Shown one piece after another: positions 1,775 through 36,641 of a stretch of DNA of 38,909 nt; position 1 is the stretch's first letter; every line of letters begins with the position of its first letter. Position numbers and translations under genes: made by a program. Origin of the DNA: a bacterium (GTDB taxonomy: Bacteria > JALSQH01); contig JALSQH010000118.1 of the NCBI GenBank assembly GCA_026985515.1, positions 1 through 38,909 on the forward strand. Reading direction: 5' to 3'. The notes under the pieces were generated by a model. It was given only the letters and a program-made list of their open reading frames with translations, made no database searches and was not told where the DNA came from.

Positions 1775-2128
<354 letters not shown>

Positions 2129-2151
2129 AACCATAAATGAAGGAGGTTACT

Positions 2152-3564
2152 ATGACACCAAAAGAAGTGATTGAGTTTGCCAAGAAGAATGATGTAAAGA
2201 TGGTTGATTTGAAGTTTCTCGATATTCTGGGAACCTGGCAGCATTTTCTGGTACCAATCAGCGAGTTAAAAGAAGAAAGTTTTGAAGAGGGATTTGGTTT
2301 TGATGGTTCCAGCATCAGGGGTTGGCAGCCCATCCATGCCAGTGACATGCTGGTTGTCCCTGATCCCGATACTGCTATTATCGATCCATTTATTGAGGTT
2401 CCAACATTGAGTCTCATCTGCAACATTGTTGATCCAATTACCAGGGAACCCTATGACAAAGATCCAAGATACATCGCCCAGAAGGCTGAGAATTATCTGA
2501 AGTCCACCGGAATCGGTGATACAGCCTATTTTGGACCGGAAGCGGAGTTCTTTATTTTTGATGATATCAGATATGCATCTGATCCCAACTATGCCTTTTA
2601 TTTCATTGATTCAATTGAAGGAATATGGAATACTGGCAGAGAGGAAAATCCAAACCTTGGTTACAAGATAAGGCACAAAGAAGGTTATTTCCCCGTTATG
2701 CCTTCTGATTCTCTTACTGATCTCAGGAATGAAATGGTGCAGGTTCTGATTTCTCTCGGGATTGATGTGGAGGCTGCTCACCATGAGGTGGCCACTGCTG
2801 GACAGGGTGAGATTGATATGAGATATGACAGTCTTGTGAAGATGGGTGACAAGCTGATGTGGTTCAAATATGTTGTGAGAAATGTTGCCAGGAAGCATGG
2901 AAAAGTTGCTACCTTTATGCCAAAACCACTCTACAATGATAATGGTTGTGGTATGCATACCCACCAGTCTATCTGGAAGGAAGGAAAACCAGTTTTTGCA
3001 GGTGACAAATATGGTGGATTGAGTGAGATTGCAATGTGGTATATTGGTGGTATTATCAAGCATGCAGCAGCCATTGCAGCATTTACAAATCCAACTGTTA
3101 ATTCTTACAGAAGGCTCGTTCCCGGTTTTGAAGCTCCAGTGAATCTTGCATATTCCAGCAGGAATAGAAGTGCAGCAATAAGGATTCCAATGTACAGCCC
3201 GAGCCCAAAGGCCAAGAGAATTGAGGTCAGATTCCCTGATCCAACTGCCAATGGATATCTTGCCTTCACAGCAATGCTTATGGCTGGACTTGATGGAATT
3301 ATGAACAAAATTGATCCTGGCGAACCTCTGGATAAGGATATTTACTCACTCTCACCTGAAGAATTGAAGGGAGTGCCTCAGATGCCAGCTTCCCTTGAAG
3401 AGGCTCTCGATGCTCTCGAGAAAGATCACGAATTTCTCCTCAAGGGAGATGTTTTCACAGAAGAGGTTATTCAGACCTGGATTGAGTACAAGAGGGAAAA
3501 GGAGATCGCTCCTCTCAGACAGAGGCCAAATCCATACGAGTTCTTCCTTTACTTCGATGCGTAA
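2152..3564 (+). CDS. glnA: Glutamine synthetase type I
   Basis: ATP-dependent glutamine synthetase, the main ammonium-assimilating enzyme. I place the start at ATG 2152 because AAGGAGG at 2140-2146 sits 5 bases before it; an in-frame ATG at 2137 lies upstream of that site. This gives 470 residues, matching the family length of about 470. Visible signatures are FDGSSIRGW near the N-terminus, [10 protein letters not shown], the [13 protein letters not shown]-site region, and [13 protein letters not shown] with NRSAAIRIP. Tyr398 in [11 protein letters not shown] corresponds to the adenylylation site of enterobacterial-type (GSI-beta) enzymes, so covalent control by an adenylyltransferase, together with the PII protein upstream, is expected. 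The adenylyltransferase itself is not in this window. Confidence 0.97.
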
Positions 3565-14612: not shown

Positions 14613-16088
14613 CTATCCTATCAAAAAAATTGGAAGGAACAGGAACAGACCTATCTGTGTGATACTTGTTCTTTTCGCGGCTTCCTCAAGGGCTTCTGAG
14701 ACATTGTTCACAGCAATCATTCCGAGCTTTTCAGCAACATTTGGATTTCCCCCTATTGCAATCTGGGCGGAGGTGTTTACCTTTCCGGGGCAGCCCCAAT
14801 ACCATGCAAGAATAGCATGTGCGCCGTGGTAACCGTAACCATTATTGTAGAGATGGTAAAATTCCCTGTTTTTCCAGTAGAACTCTTCCAGATCCTTTCG
14901 CCTTTCACATTCCATTGGAAGATGGTTATTGTAGAGGTAAACATATGGGTAGTGTTTATCAAGATCAAAAACTTCTTCAAGAGGATTCCAGAAAATCAGA
15001 ACTCCACCATTTTTAATGGCTTTTTTGAAAAGGGAATAGATGTACCCGCTGACCATTGTATGTATCAGAACAGGATTTGTTTGAGAGTTAACACTGTATG
15101 GTGAAAGGGAGGGAAGTCCAAAGAGAACTGCATCGAACTTTTTAGGTGTGTAGATACTGAGCTGTTTTTTCACTTCTTTTATGGCTTTTTCATGAATGGT
15201 ATCCACATCACCAGCAAAAACTTCATAAAGGGGATACCAGGATCTTATTGACTGGAAGGTCTTGTATCGCGCTATTCTGGGGAGATTATTGTAAAAGTCC
15301 CATGCTACAGGAATTTTTGCGGCAATGTTTTTAAGGGAAATATCCACGGGAGGTAGAAAAATATTGCTCAATACGAGTTCAATTTTAAACAGATTTATTT
15401 TGTTTTTGATCACTTTTCCCATTCTTTTGATTATTGCGTGAAATTCTGATTCGGTGTCCATGTATGAATTTGAAATCAGGATGTCGGGGTTGTGAGATTC
15501 CAGAATTGTGGTGAAGGAGCCGGTACCCACAGCAATGGATTTCCACCCACCATTCATTGGAAGGAAAACTATACTTATGTATATTACCAGATCTGCTTCA
15601 AGGAGGTGTCTGTTTATCTCCACTCTTTCTCCCTTTTCCGTATCCCCGATCCAGACAGCGTCCTGCTCCCTGTGAAAATTCAATCTATCAATCCACCCTT
15701 TCCACACCTTTTTCCCTATCATATGTCTTACTTCTGAGGGTGTGCATCTCCTGTGAAGTCCTGTTGCACAGAGAAGGGTAACATTTTTCCTGTCTATCCC
15801 TGCCTGGAGAATCAATTTTAAAACTTCATCAAGAACAGTTTTTCGGATATCTGAGATCATGGGGGGAAAGGGGACGGAAATGTCATCAAAGGCCACAACA
15901 ACCTTGCGTGAACGCCTGAGAAGGTCTGGAAGCGGATATGTCCCATCTGGATTCAGGAGAGCGTTTTTTATTTTCCTGGTTGGAGATATTGCAGGAATAA
16001 ATGGTCTGGGAGCGGAGAGAATATCCCACTCTTCTCTGACCTTCACAGGAGTAACACTTTCTCCGTTTAGCAGGAGTACCTTTTTCAT
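14613..16088 (-). CDS. LarA-like protein (nickel-dependent lactate racemase family, DUF2088)
   Basis: A 491-residue protein of the LarA fold. LarA uses a nickel-pincer cofactor bound to an active-site Lys. Here the Lys is in NGGWKSIAVGTGSF (Lys183), His112 lies in ATGLHRRCTP (the catalytic-loop His) and His199 in LESHNP. The conserved DDxSRPTP box reads DDISVPFPP: the Arg that binds the lactate carboxylate is Val72. So the fold and cofactor Lys are kept while the substrate site differs, and lactate racemase activity should not be assumed. Cofactor genes larB, larC and larE are not in the window. The C-terminus is hydrophobic (IGLFLFLPIFLIG). A TTGACA box upstream implies an almost leaderless mRNA; a GGGG abutting the ATG is too close to act as a binding site. 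Confidence 0.75.
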   Translation of the reverse strand: MKKVLLLNGESVTPVKVREEWDILSAPRPFIPAISPTRKIKNALLNPDGTYPLPDLLRRSRKVVVAFDDISVPFPPMISDIRKTVLDEVLKLILQAGIDRKNVTLLCATGLHRRCTPSEVRHMIGKKVWKGWIDRLNFHREQDAVWIGDTEKGERVEINRHLLEADLVIYISIVFLPMNGGWKSIAVGTGSFTTILESHNPDILISNSYMDTESEFHAIIKRMGKVIKNKINLFKIELVLSNIFLPPVDISLKNIAAKIPVAWDFYNNLPRIARYKTFQSIRSWYPLYEVFAGDVDTIHEKAIKEVKKQLSIYTPKKFDAVLFGLPSLSPYSVNSQTNPVLIHTMVSGYIYSLFKKAIKNGGVLIFWNPLEEVFDLDKHYPYVYLYNNHLPMECERRKDLEEFYWKNREFYHLYNNGYGYHGAHAILAWYWGCPGKVNTSAQIAIGGNPNVAEKLGMIAVNNVSEALEEAAKRTSITQIGLFLFLPIFLIG

Positions 16089-30935: not shown

Positions 30936-31124
30936 TTAAACTTTGACAACTTTGCCAGCCTTAAGGCAGCTGGTACAAACATAAACCCTTTTGGGTTTAC
31001 CATCAACAAGGATACGAACTTTATGTAAATTTGGATACCAGACAGTTTTTGTACGATTGTGTGCGTGGCTCACATTGTATCCCCTCTGGGGACCTTTTCC
31101 ACAAACGTAACATCTCCTTGCCAT
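30936..31124 (-). CDS. rpmB: 50S ribosomal protein L28, zinc-binding form
   Basis: A 62-residue L28 with both CxxC pairs (Cys5/Cys8 in CYVCGKGP and Cys50/Cys53 in [10 protein letters not shown]), the C+ type. [16 protein letters not shown] is the diagnostic core. AAAGGAG lies 6 bases before the ATG and a near-perfect promoter lies upstream. It is single, with no rpmG next to it. Confidence 0.96.
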
Positions 31125-31156: not shown

Positions 31157-31184
31157 ATTATACCGGTTACCTTTTTGTTGTCAA
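31157..31184 (-). promoter_or_regulatory. Strong sigma-70-type promoter of rpmB
   Basis: On the - strand: TTGACA (31184-31179), 16-base spacer, TATAAT (31162-31157). Both boxes are perfect; AAAGGAG (31137-31131) follows before the ATG at 31124. Confidence 0.85.
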
Positions 31185-31216
31185 ACGGGGAAAGATGAAG
31201 ATAATTACCCTGATAA

Positions 31217-31248
31217 TGAAAATCTTTCTCTATGAGTGAAAATTTTTC
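31217..31248 (+). promoter_or_regulatory. Two GAAA-N3-TTTC boxes, possible activator sites
   Basis: TGAAAATCTTTC (31217-31228) and TGAAAATTTTTC (31237-31248) share 11 of 12 bases, each is a small palindrome GAAA-N3-TTTC, and they lie exactly 20 bases apart (two helical turns). They sit about 100-126 bases before the expected sigma-54 start, the usual place for enhancer-binding protein sites. No protein is assigned. Confidence 0.4.
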
Positions 31249-31316
31249 ATTCTCATTGTTTACCTTTTTTCCCATTTCCAGTCATAAATGTAGTGTTTTT
31301 CAGTGGCTTGTTTTAT

Positions 31317-31334
31317 TTGGCATGAAAGTTGCAA
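31317..31334 (+). promoter_or_regulatory. Sigma-54 promoter of the giant lipoprotein gene
   Basis: TTGGCATGAAAGTTGCAA matches the sigma-54 consensus YTGGCACG-N4-TTGCW at all but one position. GG is at 31319-31320 and GC at 31331-31332, exactly ten bases between. Transcription would start near 31343, leaving a leader of about 21 bases with AAAAGGGGG before the ATG at 31365. Confidence 0.75.
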
Positions 31335-31364
31335 CTAAATATAAAACACAAAAAGGGGGATTCG

Positions 31365-34300
31365 ATGTCGAAGGTAGGGAGCTTTTTTGTTGCAATTCTT
31401 CTTGCATTCAGTATTGTTCTTTCATCATGCGGAAAACCTGAGGATGTAACGAAGCCCACTGTAAAGATTCTTGTTCCTCAGGAAGGGAAGATCTATTCTC
31501 CCCAGCTTGTCATCAGGGGAATTGCATCTGATAATAATTTGAAGAGGGTATATGTTCAAATTGACAGTGAGCCATGGCAGACTGCTACAGGAAATGTGAG
31601 CTGGATGTTTTTTCCTGGTGTATTGACTGCTGGTTCTCACAGGGTCCAGGTTTATGCAATAGATGGAGCGGGCAACAAGAGTAAGGTTGAGTATGTGGAT
31701 TTTTACATTGATAAGGATCCTCCCACCTTTGTAATTGCTTCTCCCTACGAAGGAGAGGATTTTAATGCTTCCGATGTACAGGTAAGAATTTCCGCCACCG
31801 ATGACCTTGGAGTGAAGACGGTCTATTTTTCTCTCGACGGTCATGATTATTTTCCTGTAGATTATTCATCTTCGCCACTGGAGTATACATTTCATGACCT
31901 TGAAAATGGGGAACATGTTTTGAGTGTTTATGTTGTGGATAAGTCGGGGAAGAAGAGTGCAGTGAAAAGTGTGAGGTTTATCGTTCTTGTTGATCACACT
32001 CCACCAGAGGTGACTATTTTTTCTCCACTGGATGGAAGCTGGTTCAGCGGTGGAAGCATAACAGTCCTTGGTTCTGCCTCCGATGATCTATCTGGTGTTG
32101 ATAGAGTGGAAGTGAAGCTGGACAATGGGGACTGGGAACATGCGCTTGGTACTGATCAGTGGATGATCAATATACCTTACATAAGTGACGGAGTGCATAA
32201 AATTTATGCAAGAAGTATAGACAGGAGATTAAATTTTAGTCAGCCCGTAAGTATAACAATTTACTATGATACTCTTTCTCCCCTGCTCACAGGTGTTTCT
32301 ATCAATGACAACGATGTCATATCTGGTTACAGCTATAATGTTTCACTTTCAGCTGTTGATAATCTCTGGGTAAAGGAAATTGATTACAGAGTTTACTCTG
32401 GAGGAAATGTTTTCAGTGGAACTTATACATATCCATTTCTCACAACAATGGTTACACAGCTGATAAATATTCCTGTTAATGATGGTGTGAATACTCTCCA
32501 GATCGAAGTTCATGACAACACAGGTCACACTGTCTCTAAATCTATTACGTTTTTTGTTGATAACGCAGGACCAGAAATCAACGCCGCTGTGGATGAATGG
32601 TACAATGGTTCCTCAATAACAATTAACGGTTTTGCACAGGACGAATATTCTCCAGTTACAGAAGTGGCTGTTAGCCTTGATCATGGTCCATATCAGATTG
32701 TATTTTCAGGTAATTCTAATCCAGCATCCTGGAGCTTCACTTCAGGTATTGAAAGTGGTGAACACACCCTTGATGTCAGGGCCTTTGATATTTTTGGAAA
32801 CATGAGTGAAAATTCCTATACATTTAAAGTGGATAATACACCTCCTGTGGTTACAATTGGAACACCACAGAATGGTACCTGGTACAGTGGCGGAGATGTT
32901 TTGTTTGCTGGTAGGGCCTCGGATGATTTTTCTGGGGTTAATCATGTTTACATTTCCCTTGATGGCGGCAACACATGGGAGGAAACGACTGGCACTGAAT
33001 CCTGGATGGCTTATTATCCATCGCTTCCCGGTGGTGTTTATCATGTAGAAGTCAAGGCAGTTGACCTGGTTGGCAATGAAAGTTATCCAGCGTATGTAAC
33101 CATTTACTACGATTCCACTCCAACAATTGTCCTTTCATCCAGTATAACCGATGGAGAAACTCTTGGAGTTAGAAAGTATATGATTCCGTTCACTGCCACT
33201 GTTTATGATTCAGTTTCCCTCTACAAAGTTGATCTATATGCCGAGAGTTCAACGGGTGTTGTGTCTTCATACTCATTTACATATCCAGAGTTTGAGACTC
33301 TTGCGACTTTCACTGTTCCTGTAACGATAGGGGCTGGAGACAATGTTGTTCATATTCACACAGTGGACAGATCAGGGAATGAAGATGATGAGTACATAAG
33401 TTTTTATGTGGACTGGTTTGCCCCTGTGATTCAGATTACCAGACAGAATCAGATACCACCCTCAAAAATTATACTGAACGGAACAATTTCAGACTATTCA
33501 CCCGTAACCTTTGCCTCATACAGGTTTGATACTGATAACTGGTCGGTACTCATTGAGAATGGTACCATGAATACCTATTCCTTTGCCCTTACGAAGGACA
33601 ATGTTGGTACTACTGAACATCATCTCTACATCAAAGCCTGGGATCAGTGGGGTAATATGGCTGATTTTGTCTATAACTTCTACTATGATGTGACCGGTCC
33701 AACAGTGTATATAAACTTTCCACCAGAGAATGGTTATATTCTTGGATTAAAGTCTTTTCCTGTTGAGGGAACCGCTGTGGATGTTGGATCTGGGATTTCT
33801 GAGGTTCTCTACTGCATTGATTATCCATGTTATGTAACTCCGCAGGCCAACGGTGGTGGTGATCTTTTTGGTGTATGGAATACTGCTGAAGGTGCTGAGT
33901 CCTGGAAATTTAATGTTTCCTCACTGTCAAAGGGGATTCACTATATCCATGTTTTTGCGATTGACCTGGCAGGAAATTACGGCCAGGCCACCTCTGTTTC
34001 CGTAAATATAGCAGGAGATACAATCTATGTTTCAAGCAGTAACGGAAGCAATTACAACTCTGGTGTAACCACCACCGAACCGCTGAGAACCCTTGATTAT
34101 GCCTATGAATACGCGTTACTGCGAGGATTTACAAATATTAAGATAGCGGCTGGAAACTACGATGTGGCTGATACTTCAGATACTTCCACCTTCAAAGCCG
34201 TTTCCACATTGAAACTTGTTAATGGAATAAATCTCTACGGTGGATATTCAACAGATTTTACCTACTATGATCCTCTGACCTATGCGACACTGGTGAGCAC

Positions 34301-36641
34301 CAGCGGAAAAGGTAGAGTTTTTATGGCTGAGAAGATAACTCAACCCACAGTGATTTCAGGACTATACATTTACAATGGTGATGTTACTCAGGATACATAT
34401 CCCTACGGTGGAGGAATTCTGGTAAAGGATTCAAACTATAATCTCTACATTACCTCCTGTACGATTTTTAGAAACAAAGCGGTCTATGGCGGAGGTGTTG
34501 CCTATGTGAATTCTGTGCCCAATATTGAGTACAGCAGAGTTGCATCTAATGTGGTTTACAGCAAGGGTGGAGGCATGTACCTCACTTTTAATTATCCTCT
34601 TGAAGTAACTTTTAACGGAATGGTGTTTGCATGGAATGAAGCAAAGGAAAAGGATGAAGCGGCGGATGGTGGAGGTGTGTATATAAGTGGAGCCAGCAAT
34701 GTTTTGATTAAAAAGAATACTCTTTTCTACAGGAATCGGGCAGGTAATGGAGGAGGAATCTTTGTTAAAAATTCTGGAAAAGTGGAGATAGCCGGTGCTA
34801 TTTTTACCGGAAATCAGGCTCAGATACAGTTCTGGAGTGATGGATATGGTGGAGGAATGTATGTGAAAGATGTACCTGTTGAGATTAAAGGTGGTGTTTT
34901 CTATGGGAACAGTGCGTATAAAGGTGGAGGCCTCTATTTTGTCACAGAGAATGAAGATACGGATTTGAATGTGGATGGAAGTGCTTCACAGGTAATTGTC
35001 GATTCTAACTCGGCTGATTTTGGTGGTGGTATTTATGTAAAGGGTGGAAGTAGCACTCTGAATCATGTAGTTGTGTCAAGGAATCAGTCAAATTCAACAG
35101 AATATAACTGGATAACTGGTATACCTACCAAATTTGGTGGCGGCGGTGTTTATGTTGATGGAGGAAAAATGAGGATATATTATTCCAGATTCAGAAAAAA
35201 TATTGCACAGGCAACATGTGGTGGAATTGCTGTTTCACAGAGTGTGGTTGAACTTGACCATTCTCTTGTGATTGAAAATTACGCAGATCCTAACAATGGT
35301 ACAGGTGGTGGAGTATGCGTGGGTGGTGATGATGCCCGACTTCTTGTGACCTATTCTTCTGTTGATACTAATGAGAGCAATGCAGGTGGTGGTATGGTTA
35401 TCAAAGACAATTCAAGAGTGTTGATAGAGAATAGCAGTTTGAAGGATAATTATGCAACGTGGGCAGGTGGTGCAATTTTTGCAGGAGATCTTGAAAGTAA
35501 CGGGAGTATTCCACGGGTAAAGGTTGAAAGAAGCATCATAGATGGAAACTGGGGTAATGGTGGCGCTTATGGATTGTGGATAGCAGGTAGCATAACTGAG
35601 TATCGGAATGTAGTATCCAACAACGGTGGTTCGGGGAATGATGGAGGAGCATATTACATCTACACATGGAGCGGTGGCAATATGGTTGTGAATTCTTCCT
35701 ATGTGATTTACAGAGATAACAGTGCAAGTAGAGGAGGAGTCGTAGCTGTTTACAATTATAGCTCATCAAAAGCTATCAATGCCAGATTTGAAAATGATGA
35801 GTTTACAGGAAATGTTGCCAATAGAGGTGGTGTGGTGTATGTGGAGGAAATGGTGACAGGGGACCAGGTAACAATCAACTGGAGTAAGATTCACAACAAT
35901 ACCGCATACGCTACCGGTTCAGTTTTATATGACTTTGCAAATGAGGGTCTCGTAACTATGGTTGACAATGCTGTTTATGATAACACCGGAGATTATATCC
36001 AGCTGACTACCAATTATGATGCTCAGGTTTATCTCCTCAACAATGTTTTTGTTGATCTTTCTGGTAACTATAATCTTCTTGTCCTTGGAAGAGATAGGTG
36101 GAGAAACTCATATGCAGATCCTGTTGTGGTCAATAACCTTTTCAGCGGCGGATATAATCAGGTTGAAATCGGTGATTCAGCAGGGGATACTTCAAGTGGT
36201 TATTATGTGAATAACATCTTTTTCAATCCCGCCAATGATGGTGTGATTGAGAACAATTCCAATACTGAGCCGGAAGTTCTCTTGAACAACGATTTCTACA
36301 ATGCTGGTAACTGTCTCTACGAGGACTACGACAGCTCTCAGGTTCCGCCCAATGTTTGTTACAATACAGCAGCAGGTATAAACTCCAATGTTGATACTCT
36401 GCAGGGTCACAATGAAAATAACATGGATGACGACCCGGCTTTTGCTACTGATGGTGTGCACCTGACTTCTTCTTCCCATCTCATTGATGCCGGTTATGAC
36501 CCTGTGAATGATCCCTATGGCATCTTTGGTTTTGACAATGCATGGCCGGATATTGATGGTCAGCTGAGACCCTACGATGATCCATCTGTTGCCAATGTTG
36601 TTTCTGCCTGGGATATAGGGCCTGATGAGTACAGACCGTAA
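31365..36641 (+). CDS. Giant surface lipoprotein: nine Ig-like domains plus a right-handed beta-helix
   Basis: A 1758-residue protein with a lipoprotein signal (LSSC, Cys22); start ATG 31365 follows AAAAGGGGG. Nine bacterial Ig-like domains of about 90-100 residues follow (about 31-881), recognised by TPPxVTI...GxxxSGG openings and repeated AxDxxGN strands. From about 882 to 1740 there is a parallel beta-helix: it opens with DTIYVSSSNGSNYNSG then PLRTLDYAYEYAL, like DUF1565-type helices, and has many GGGIYV/GGGMY turns as in polymorphic-membrane-protein repeats. It ends in DIDGQLRP and DIGPDEYRP, the typical end of choice-of-anchor-Q beta-helix proteins. Domains 3-4-5 and 6-7-8 look like a duplicated three-domain block. 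Adhesion, cell-cell contact or glycan binding is inferred; no catalytic motif was found. Confidence 0.85.
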   Translation: MSKVGSFFVAILLAFSIVLSSCGKPEDVTKPTVKILVPQEGKIYSPQLVIRGIASDNNLKRVYVQIDSEPWQTATGNVSWMFFPGVLTAGSHRVQVYAIDGAGNKSKVEYVDFYIDKDPPTFVIASPYEGEDFNASDVQVRISATDDLGVKTVYFSLDGHDYFPVDYSSSPLEYTFHDLENGEHVLSVYVVDKSGKKSAVKSVRFIVLVDHTPPEVTIFSPLDGSWFSGGSITVLGSASDDLSGVDRVEVKLDNGDWEHALGTDQWMINIPYISDGVHKIYARSIDRRLNFSQPVSITIYYDTLSPLLTGVSINDNDVISGYSYNVSLSAVDNLWVKEIDYRVYSGGNVFSGTYTYPFLTTMVTQLINIPVNDGVNTLQIEVHDNTGHTVSKSITFFVDNAGPEINAAVDEWYNGSSITINGFAQDEYSPVTEVAVSLDHGPYQIVFSGNSNPASWSFTSGIESGEHTLDVRAFDIFGNMSENSYTFKVDNTPPVVTIGTPQNGTWYSGGDVLFAGRASDDFSGVNHVYISLDGGNTWEETTGTESWMAYYPSLPGGVYHVEVKAVDLVGNESYPAYVTIYYDSTPTIVLSSSITDGETLGVRKYMIPFTATVYDSVSLYKVDLYAESSTGVVSSYSFTYPEFETLATFTVPVTIGAGDNVVHIHTVDRSGNEDDEYISFYVDWFAPVIQITRQNQIPPSKIILNGTISDYSPVTFASYRFDTDNWSVLIENGTMNTYSFALTKDNVGTTEHHLYIKAWDQWGNMADFVYNFYYDVTGPTVYINFPPENGYILGLKSFPVEGTAVDVGSGISEVLYCIDYPCYVTPQANGGGDLFGVWNTAEGAESWKFNVSSLSKGIHYIHVFAIDLAGNYGQATSVSVNIAGDTIYVSSSNGSNYNSGVTTTEPLRTLDYAYEYALLRGFTNIKIAAGNYDVADTSDTSTFKAVSTLKLVNGINLYGGYSTDFTYYDPLTYATLVSTSGKGRVFMAEKITQPTVISGLYIYNGDVTQDTYPYGGGILVKDSNYNLYITSCTIFRNKAVYGGGVAYVNSVPNIEYSRVASNVVYSKGGGMYLTFNYPLEVTFNGMVFAWNEAKEKDEAADGGGVYISGASNVLIKKNTLFYRNRAGNGGGIFVKNSGKVEIAGAIFTGNQAQIQFWSDGYGGGMYVKDVPVEIKGGVFYGNSAYKGGGLYFVTENEDTDLNVDGSASQVIVDSNSADFGGGIYVKGGSSTLNHVVVSRNQSNSTEYNWITGIPTKFGGGGVYVDGGKMRIYYSRFRKNIAQATCGGIAVSQSVVELDHSLVIENYADPNNGTGGGVCVGGDDARLLVTYSSVDTNESNAGGGMVIKDNSRVLIENSSLKDNYATWAGGAIFAGDLESNGSIPRVKVERSIIDGNWGNGGAYGLWIAGSITEYRNVVSNNGGSGNDGGAYYIYTWSGGNMVVNSSYVIYRDNSASRGGVVAVYNYSSSKAINARFENDEFTGNVANRGGVVYVEEMVTGDQVTINWSKIHNNTAYATGSVLYDFANEGLVTMVDNAVYDNTGDYIQLTTNYDAQVYLLNNVFVDLSGNYNLLVLGRDRWRNSYADPVVVNNLFSGGYNQVEIGDSAGDTSSGYYVNNIFFNPANDGVIENNSNTEPEVLLNNDFYNAGNCLYEDYDSSQVPPNVCYNTAAGINSNVDTLQGHNENNMDDDPAFATDGVHLTSSSHLIDAGYDPVNDPYGIFGFDNAWPDIDGQLRPYDDPSVANVVSAWDIGPDEYRP

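Follow-up and report, generated by a model that had tools for sequence, protein, structure and literature searches.

A predicted sigma-54 promoter and a tandem dyad upstream of a large Ig-repeat lipoprotein gene in a bacterial draft genome

The analysed window comprises the 38,909 nucleotides of contig C118 of a bacterial draft genome (2.36 Mb, 268 contigs, 97.6% complete). It harbours a gene putatively encoding a large lipoprotein, oriented divergently to rpmB. The following features were assigned to this region:

30936-31124, minus strand: rpmB (ribosomal protein L28; TIGR00009, 5.4e-25), the divergent neighbour of the lipoprotein gene
31157-31184, minus strand: consensus sigma-70 promoter TTGACA-N16-TATAAT facing rpmB (12/12 consensus bases)
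31178-31205, plus strand: sigma-70-like promoter TTGTCA-N16-GATAAT facing the lipoprotein gene (10/12)
31217-31248, plus strand: tandem dyad TGAAAATCTTTC (31217) / TGAAAATTTTTC (31237) with a 20-nt pitch, a direct and inverted repeat; candidate activator (enhancer) site
31317-31334, plus strand: predicted sigma-54 (-24/-12) promoter TTGGCATGAAAGTTGCAA, an exact TGGCA-N6-TTGC flanked by T and A
31317-31345, plus strand: sigma-70-like reading TTGGCA-N17-TATAAA over the sigma-54 motif (10/12)
31353-31359, plus strand: Shine-Dalgarno-like sequence AAGGGGG, five bases 5' of the ATG
31365-36641, plus strand: predicted lipoprotein of 1758 amino acids with lipobox LSSC, Ig-like repeats (Big_7, Big_13, OmpL47-type) and a C-terminal right-handed beta-helix

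The initial annotation had proposed that a near-consensus sigma-54 promoter followed by a correctly placed Shine-Dalgarno site precedes the gene of a 1758-residue surface lipoprotein, and the sequence agrees with this description. The motif lies 31 bases before the ATG at 31365, counted from 31334, and its GG (31319-31320) and GC (31331-31332) are separated by ten bases. A Shine-Dalgarno-like sequence is present between the motif and the ATG, and the transcript start predicted from the motif, about 12 bases past the GC, is located near 31344. The reading frame from this ATG comprises 1758 codons and encodes a lipobox signal peptide (MSKVGSFFVAILLAFSIVLSSC, judged by eye on the translation) as well as extracellular-type repeats.

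The N-terminal half of the protein matches Big_7 (PF17957, 1.5e-42), Big_13 (PF19077, 1.2e-27) and the OmpL47-type model (NF047446, 3.5e-43), while the right-handed beta-helix in the C-terminal half was recognised by PF13229 (5.4e-16). It thereby shares with the OmpL47-type and Big_7 Ig-like repeat lipoproteins the Ig-like repeats after the lipobox and the Beta_helix domain. It differs from these lipoproteins in the long beta-helix to which the repeats are joined and in having no orthologue found in relatives; its score of 109.5 bits is below the equivalog cut-off of 250 bits, and identity with OmpL47 of Leptospira was therefore rejected. Single-sequence AlphaFold models of the C-terminal part were poor (pLDDT 41 and 51), and a Foldseek search yielded no significant match but weak ones only, many of them to beta-helix proteins. 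No orthologue of the lipoprotein was detected in the single same-family genome (G001, 80% complete), and searches of genome contigs with the lipoprotein and with RelA/SpoT as queries revealed no close relative. The protein is probably an exported lipoprotein and perhaps adhesive; its repeat domains, and these only, suggest exposure at the cell surface rather than a periplasmic location.

Transcription from a sigma-54 promoter depends on an activator protein. The presence of rpoN had been suggested as a check, and the gene was indeed identified in the genome (sigma-54 DNA-binding domain PF04552, 2.3e-44, and the core-binding domain). The C-terminal stretch ARRTVTKYRE of its product is close to the RpoN box, ARRTVAKYRE. 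Furthermore, the genome encodes sigma-54 activator ATPases (PF00158), namely at least five of full length (three of these five with and two without a receiver domain) and two fragments at contig ends. Since both rpoN and activators are encoded, the promoter prediction is not refuted by this check.

In order to judge the motif against chance we used the strict form TGGCAN6TTGC, in which the spacer of 6 is the native spacing. It occurred in 35 of 200,000 leaders of 75 nt that were simulated with a matching dinucleotide composition (1.75e-4; 0.0175%). The longer form TTGGCAN6TTGCA has two exact matches in the 2.36 Mb genome, the other one being located inside a coding frame. Genome-wide the strict motif was found 31 times at spacer 6 compared to about 26 times per other spacer (188 in total for spacers 3-9), and most of its copies are chance matches inside genes. 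Due to this lack of a marked excess the matches were sorted by position, with the wrong spacings serving as controls and the same rule applied to all spacers, namely that the motif precedes the Shine-Dalgarno-preceded start of a gene on the same strand. The backward pattern (0 matches versus 31 for the motif) was not used as a control, since it holds CpG-type words which may make it rare.

Within 40 nt of such a start the strict motif was found in 5 of 30 cases at spacer 6 and in 0 of 88 cases at spacers 3-5 and 7-9 (Fisher p=0.0008), the 40-nt cut having been picked after the distances were seen and the 88 controls coming from among the matches listed and from other stretches examined rather than from a random draw. 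Within 150 nt the proportions were 7/30 and 3/88, respectively (Fisher p=0.0025), one of the seven cases (L016) being an internal GTG and probably false. In all five close cases the start codon follows 22-32 nt after the motif. Two further loci look similar, one of them cut by a contig end with the motif 38 nt before the start (L019), the other with a distance of 83 nt (L042). The strict motif alone thus shows no marked genome-wide excess, and the enriched part is its start-proximal subset. We estimate that strict motifs just before a start are mostly real in this genome, with a false share of under one in five.

Strict motifs were also observed at other loci. One (L109 on contig C60, 938-1084) is flanked by the gene of a sigma-54 activator, in which no sensor domain was recognised, and by a divergent gene of unrecognised family; both genes are likely to form an activator-target pair. 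Another is positioned 26 nt 5' of a Roadblock/LC7 gene (L114 on contig C222, 3853; PF03259, 2.9e-12), which is located after a histidine-kinase-like gene and before a response-regulator-like gene. The same-family genome, which also encodes rpoN, has a strict motif (TGGCAAAAAGGTTGC) as well, with 24 nt between it and the start of a gene whose product is predicted to be secreted (L184, G001:C1, 1477). Within the window a P-II-like gene is followed by glnA (1790-3564; TIGR00653, 3.7e-208). The glnB-glnA pair is a classic sigma-54 target in other bacteria; the strict sigma-54 motif was not seen upstream of the pair in the window.

Between rpmB and the sigma-54 motif, 70-100 bases upstream of the latter, the imperfect dyad pattern TGAAAN3TTTC occurs twice inside a 45-bp inverted repeat (31211-31255). 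The tandem dyad covers approximately -127 to -96 and is centred some 110 bases upstream of the predicted transcript start (31344). Sigma-54 activator sites are usually located 70-100 bases upstream. The dyad pair was first matched by eye in the leader of L042 and subsequently used in a genome-wide pattern search, by which TGAAAN3TTTC-N8-TGAAAN3TTTC was detected exactly at two places only, 31217-31248 of the window and 4038-4070 of contig C252. First-order Markov models put the chance expectation for the exact pair at 0.003 per genome when based on the genome sequence examined and at 0.02 for the composition of AT-rich intergenic DNA. These figures are somewhat favourable, as the two sites themselves had supplied the pattern.

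On contig C252 the dyad lies between the strict sigma-54 motif TGGCATCAATGTTGC and the start of a gene predicted to encode a lipobox protein of 791 amino acids with PKD-like domains (PF22352, 2e-7; PF18911, 6.9e-6). This lipoprotein is absent from the same-family genome, in which relatives of the gene divergent to it are present. The dyad pair was not found in the stretches of that genome examined, including the one that carries a relative of the divergent gene (L188). An assignment of the dyad to the lipoprotein rather than to the divergent gene is therefore weakly favoured, the link being weak because the genome used for comparison is 80% complete. The tandem dyad, which was absent from the initial annotation, is new here and ties the predicted promoter to a second locus. 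We read it as a candidate binding site of one activator common to two lineage-restricted lipoproteins.

However, the dyad is situated about 40-72 nt downstream of the strict motif on contig C252 but upstream of the motif in the window, and the two loci thus give no evidence of a common geometry. The difference in position would be compatible with a dyad pair that is unrelated to sigma-54 and serves an ordinary regulator of both lipoprotein genes, whichever of the two sigma factors, sigma-54 or sigma-70, their promoters use. The position of the dyad close to the start codon on contig C252 is likewise operator-like. Sigma-54 activator sites, on the other hand, tolerate changes of position, and a scan of the C252 leader for sigma-70-like promoters found none. 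We regard this reading, which is limited to the dyad and hence overlaps with the others, as rather unlikely.

In the main rival reading of the promoter the sigma-54 likeness would be coincidental and the gene would be driven by the housekeeping sigma-70 promoter TTGGCA-N17-TATAAA with a start near 31352. This sequence matches 10 of the 12 consensus bases, has the preferred spacer of 17 nt and is located directly 5' of the start codon. However, its -10 element lacks the conserved final T, and transcription from it would begin right at the border of the Shine-Dalgarno sequence, with a leader of 13 nt. Moreover, a sigma-70 match of 10/12 in the last 75 nt was obtained in 1.9% of the simulated leaders compared to 0.0175% for the sigma-54 motif, and the other start-proximal sigma-54 motifs have no overlapping sigma-70 reading. 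A housekeeping promoter at this position thus seems improbable, and a sigma-54 promoter appears to be the best reading of 31317-31334.

It is very unlikely that the gene is instead driven by TTGTCA-N16-GATAAT (31178-31205) with the dyad repeat at 31211-31255 acting as the operator of a repressor, for instance of the Fur family. This promoter has a 10/12 sigma-70 match, GATAATGAAAATCTTTCTC at 31212-31230 agrees with the Fur box in 16 of 19 positions (score 16, whereas none of 300 shuffles scored above 15) and a Fur-family protein is encoded in the genome. The Fur-box likeness is weakened, however, because this sole family member resembles PerR (the NCBIfam model that fits it best, with a score below the cut-off of that model) and its gene is divergent to one for a peroxiredoxin-like protein. 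In addition, just one other Fur box with up to three mismatches occurs in the genome, and it lies within a coding frame. The genome hence offers a PerR-like protein only and no set of Fur boxes; the partner dyad on contig C252 reaches only 11/19 as a Fur box, and transcripts from the upstream promoter would carry about 150 nt of leader.

We therefore return to the sigma-54 reading, by which 31317-31334 is likely to be a working promoter opened by an AAA+ activator at the dyad 31217-31248. RNA polymerase carrying RpoN would bind to the GG and GC elements and wait as a closed complex, until an activator multimer on the tandem dyad loops over and opens it. Transcription would start at about 31344 and produce a single-gene lipoprotein message with a leader of about 21 nt. 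The same activator probably also acts on the lipoprotein gene on contig C252. From the sequence we infer that the promoter is used, that an activator binds to the dyad, that expression depends on a signal, as the initial annotation had proposed, and that the product is exported to the cell surface. More tentatively, both loci may constitute a small regulon of their own in this lineage, for which the searched set holds no near relatives. A single sigma-54 activator would then recognise a site not described before (TGAAAN3TTTCA twice, 20-nt pitch), could act from either side of the start, and would turn on Ig/PKD-repeat lipoproteins that are specific to the lineage.

The arrangement has much in common with known sigma-54 (RpoN) -24/-12 promoters, that is GG-N10-GC with TGGCA and TTGC cores, a short leader, repeats of a dyad some 100 bp further upstream, and rpoN along with AAA+ activators in the genome. 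In contrast to these, the candidate site TGAAAN3TTTCA is not assigned to any known activator. The type of switch is well known and the gene set is new; the predicted promoter is of the ordinary sigma-54 kind, in a lineage that is as yet uncharacterised. In Borrelia, surface lipoproteins are under the control of a sigma-54 system, the Rrp2-RpoN-RpoS pathway (PMC4014564, PMC3162934). That pathway runs via RpoS (PMC4014564), whereas the sigma-54 motif described here is located directly 5' of the lipoprotein gene. Predictions of sigma-54 regulons extend to 16 phyla (PMC12316311), and a cross-phylum comparison ties sigma-54 to components of the bacterial exterior including lipoproteins (PMC3162934). 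The present case fits this view, to which it adds a direct instance of the motif before large Ig-repeat lipoproteins. The sighting of a motif has thereby been extended to a candidate regulon of two genes, in a bacterium for which no near relatives were present among the genomes searched. The understanding of sigma-54 itself is unchanged by this case, and the dyad may serve as a bait for the activator.

The window contains two further genes of note. The gene at 3-1379, which is cut by the contig end, is predicted to encode a Peptidase family C25 (gingipain-type) domain (PF01364, 7.6e-47), and its product weakly resembles the type IX secretion sortase PorU. The gene at 14613-16088 on the minus strand putatively encodes a protein similar to LarA-type nickel-pincer-dependent isomerases (NF052592, 2e-111, below the cut-off).
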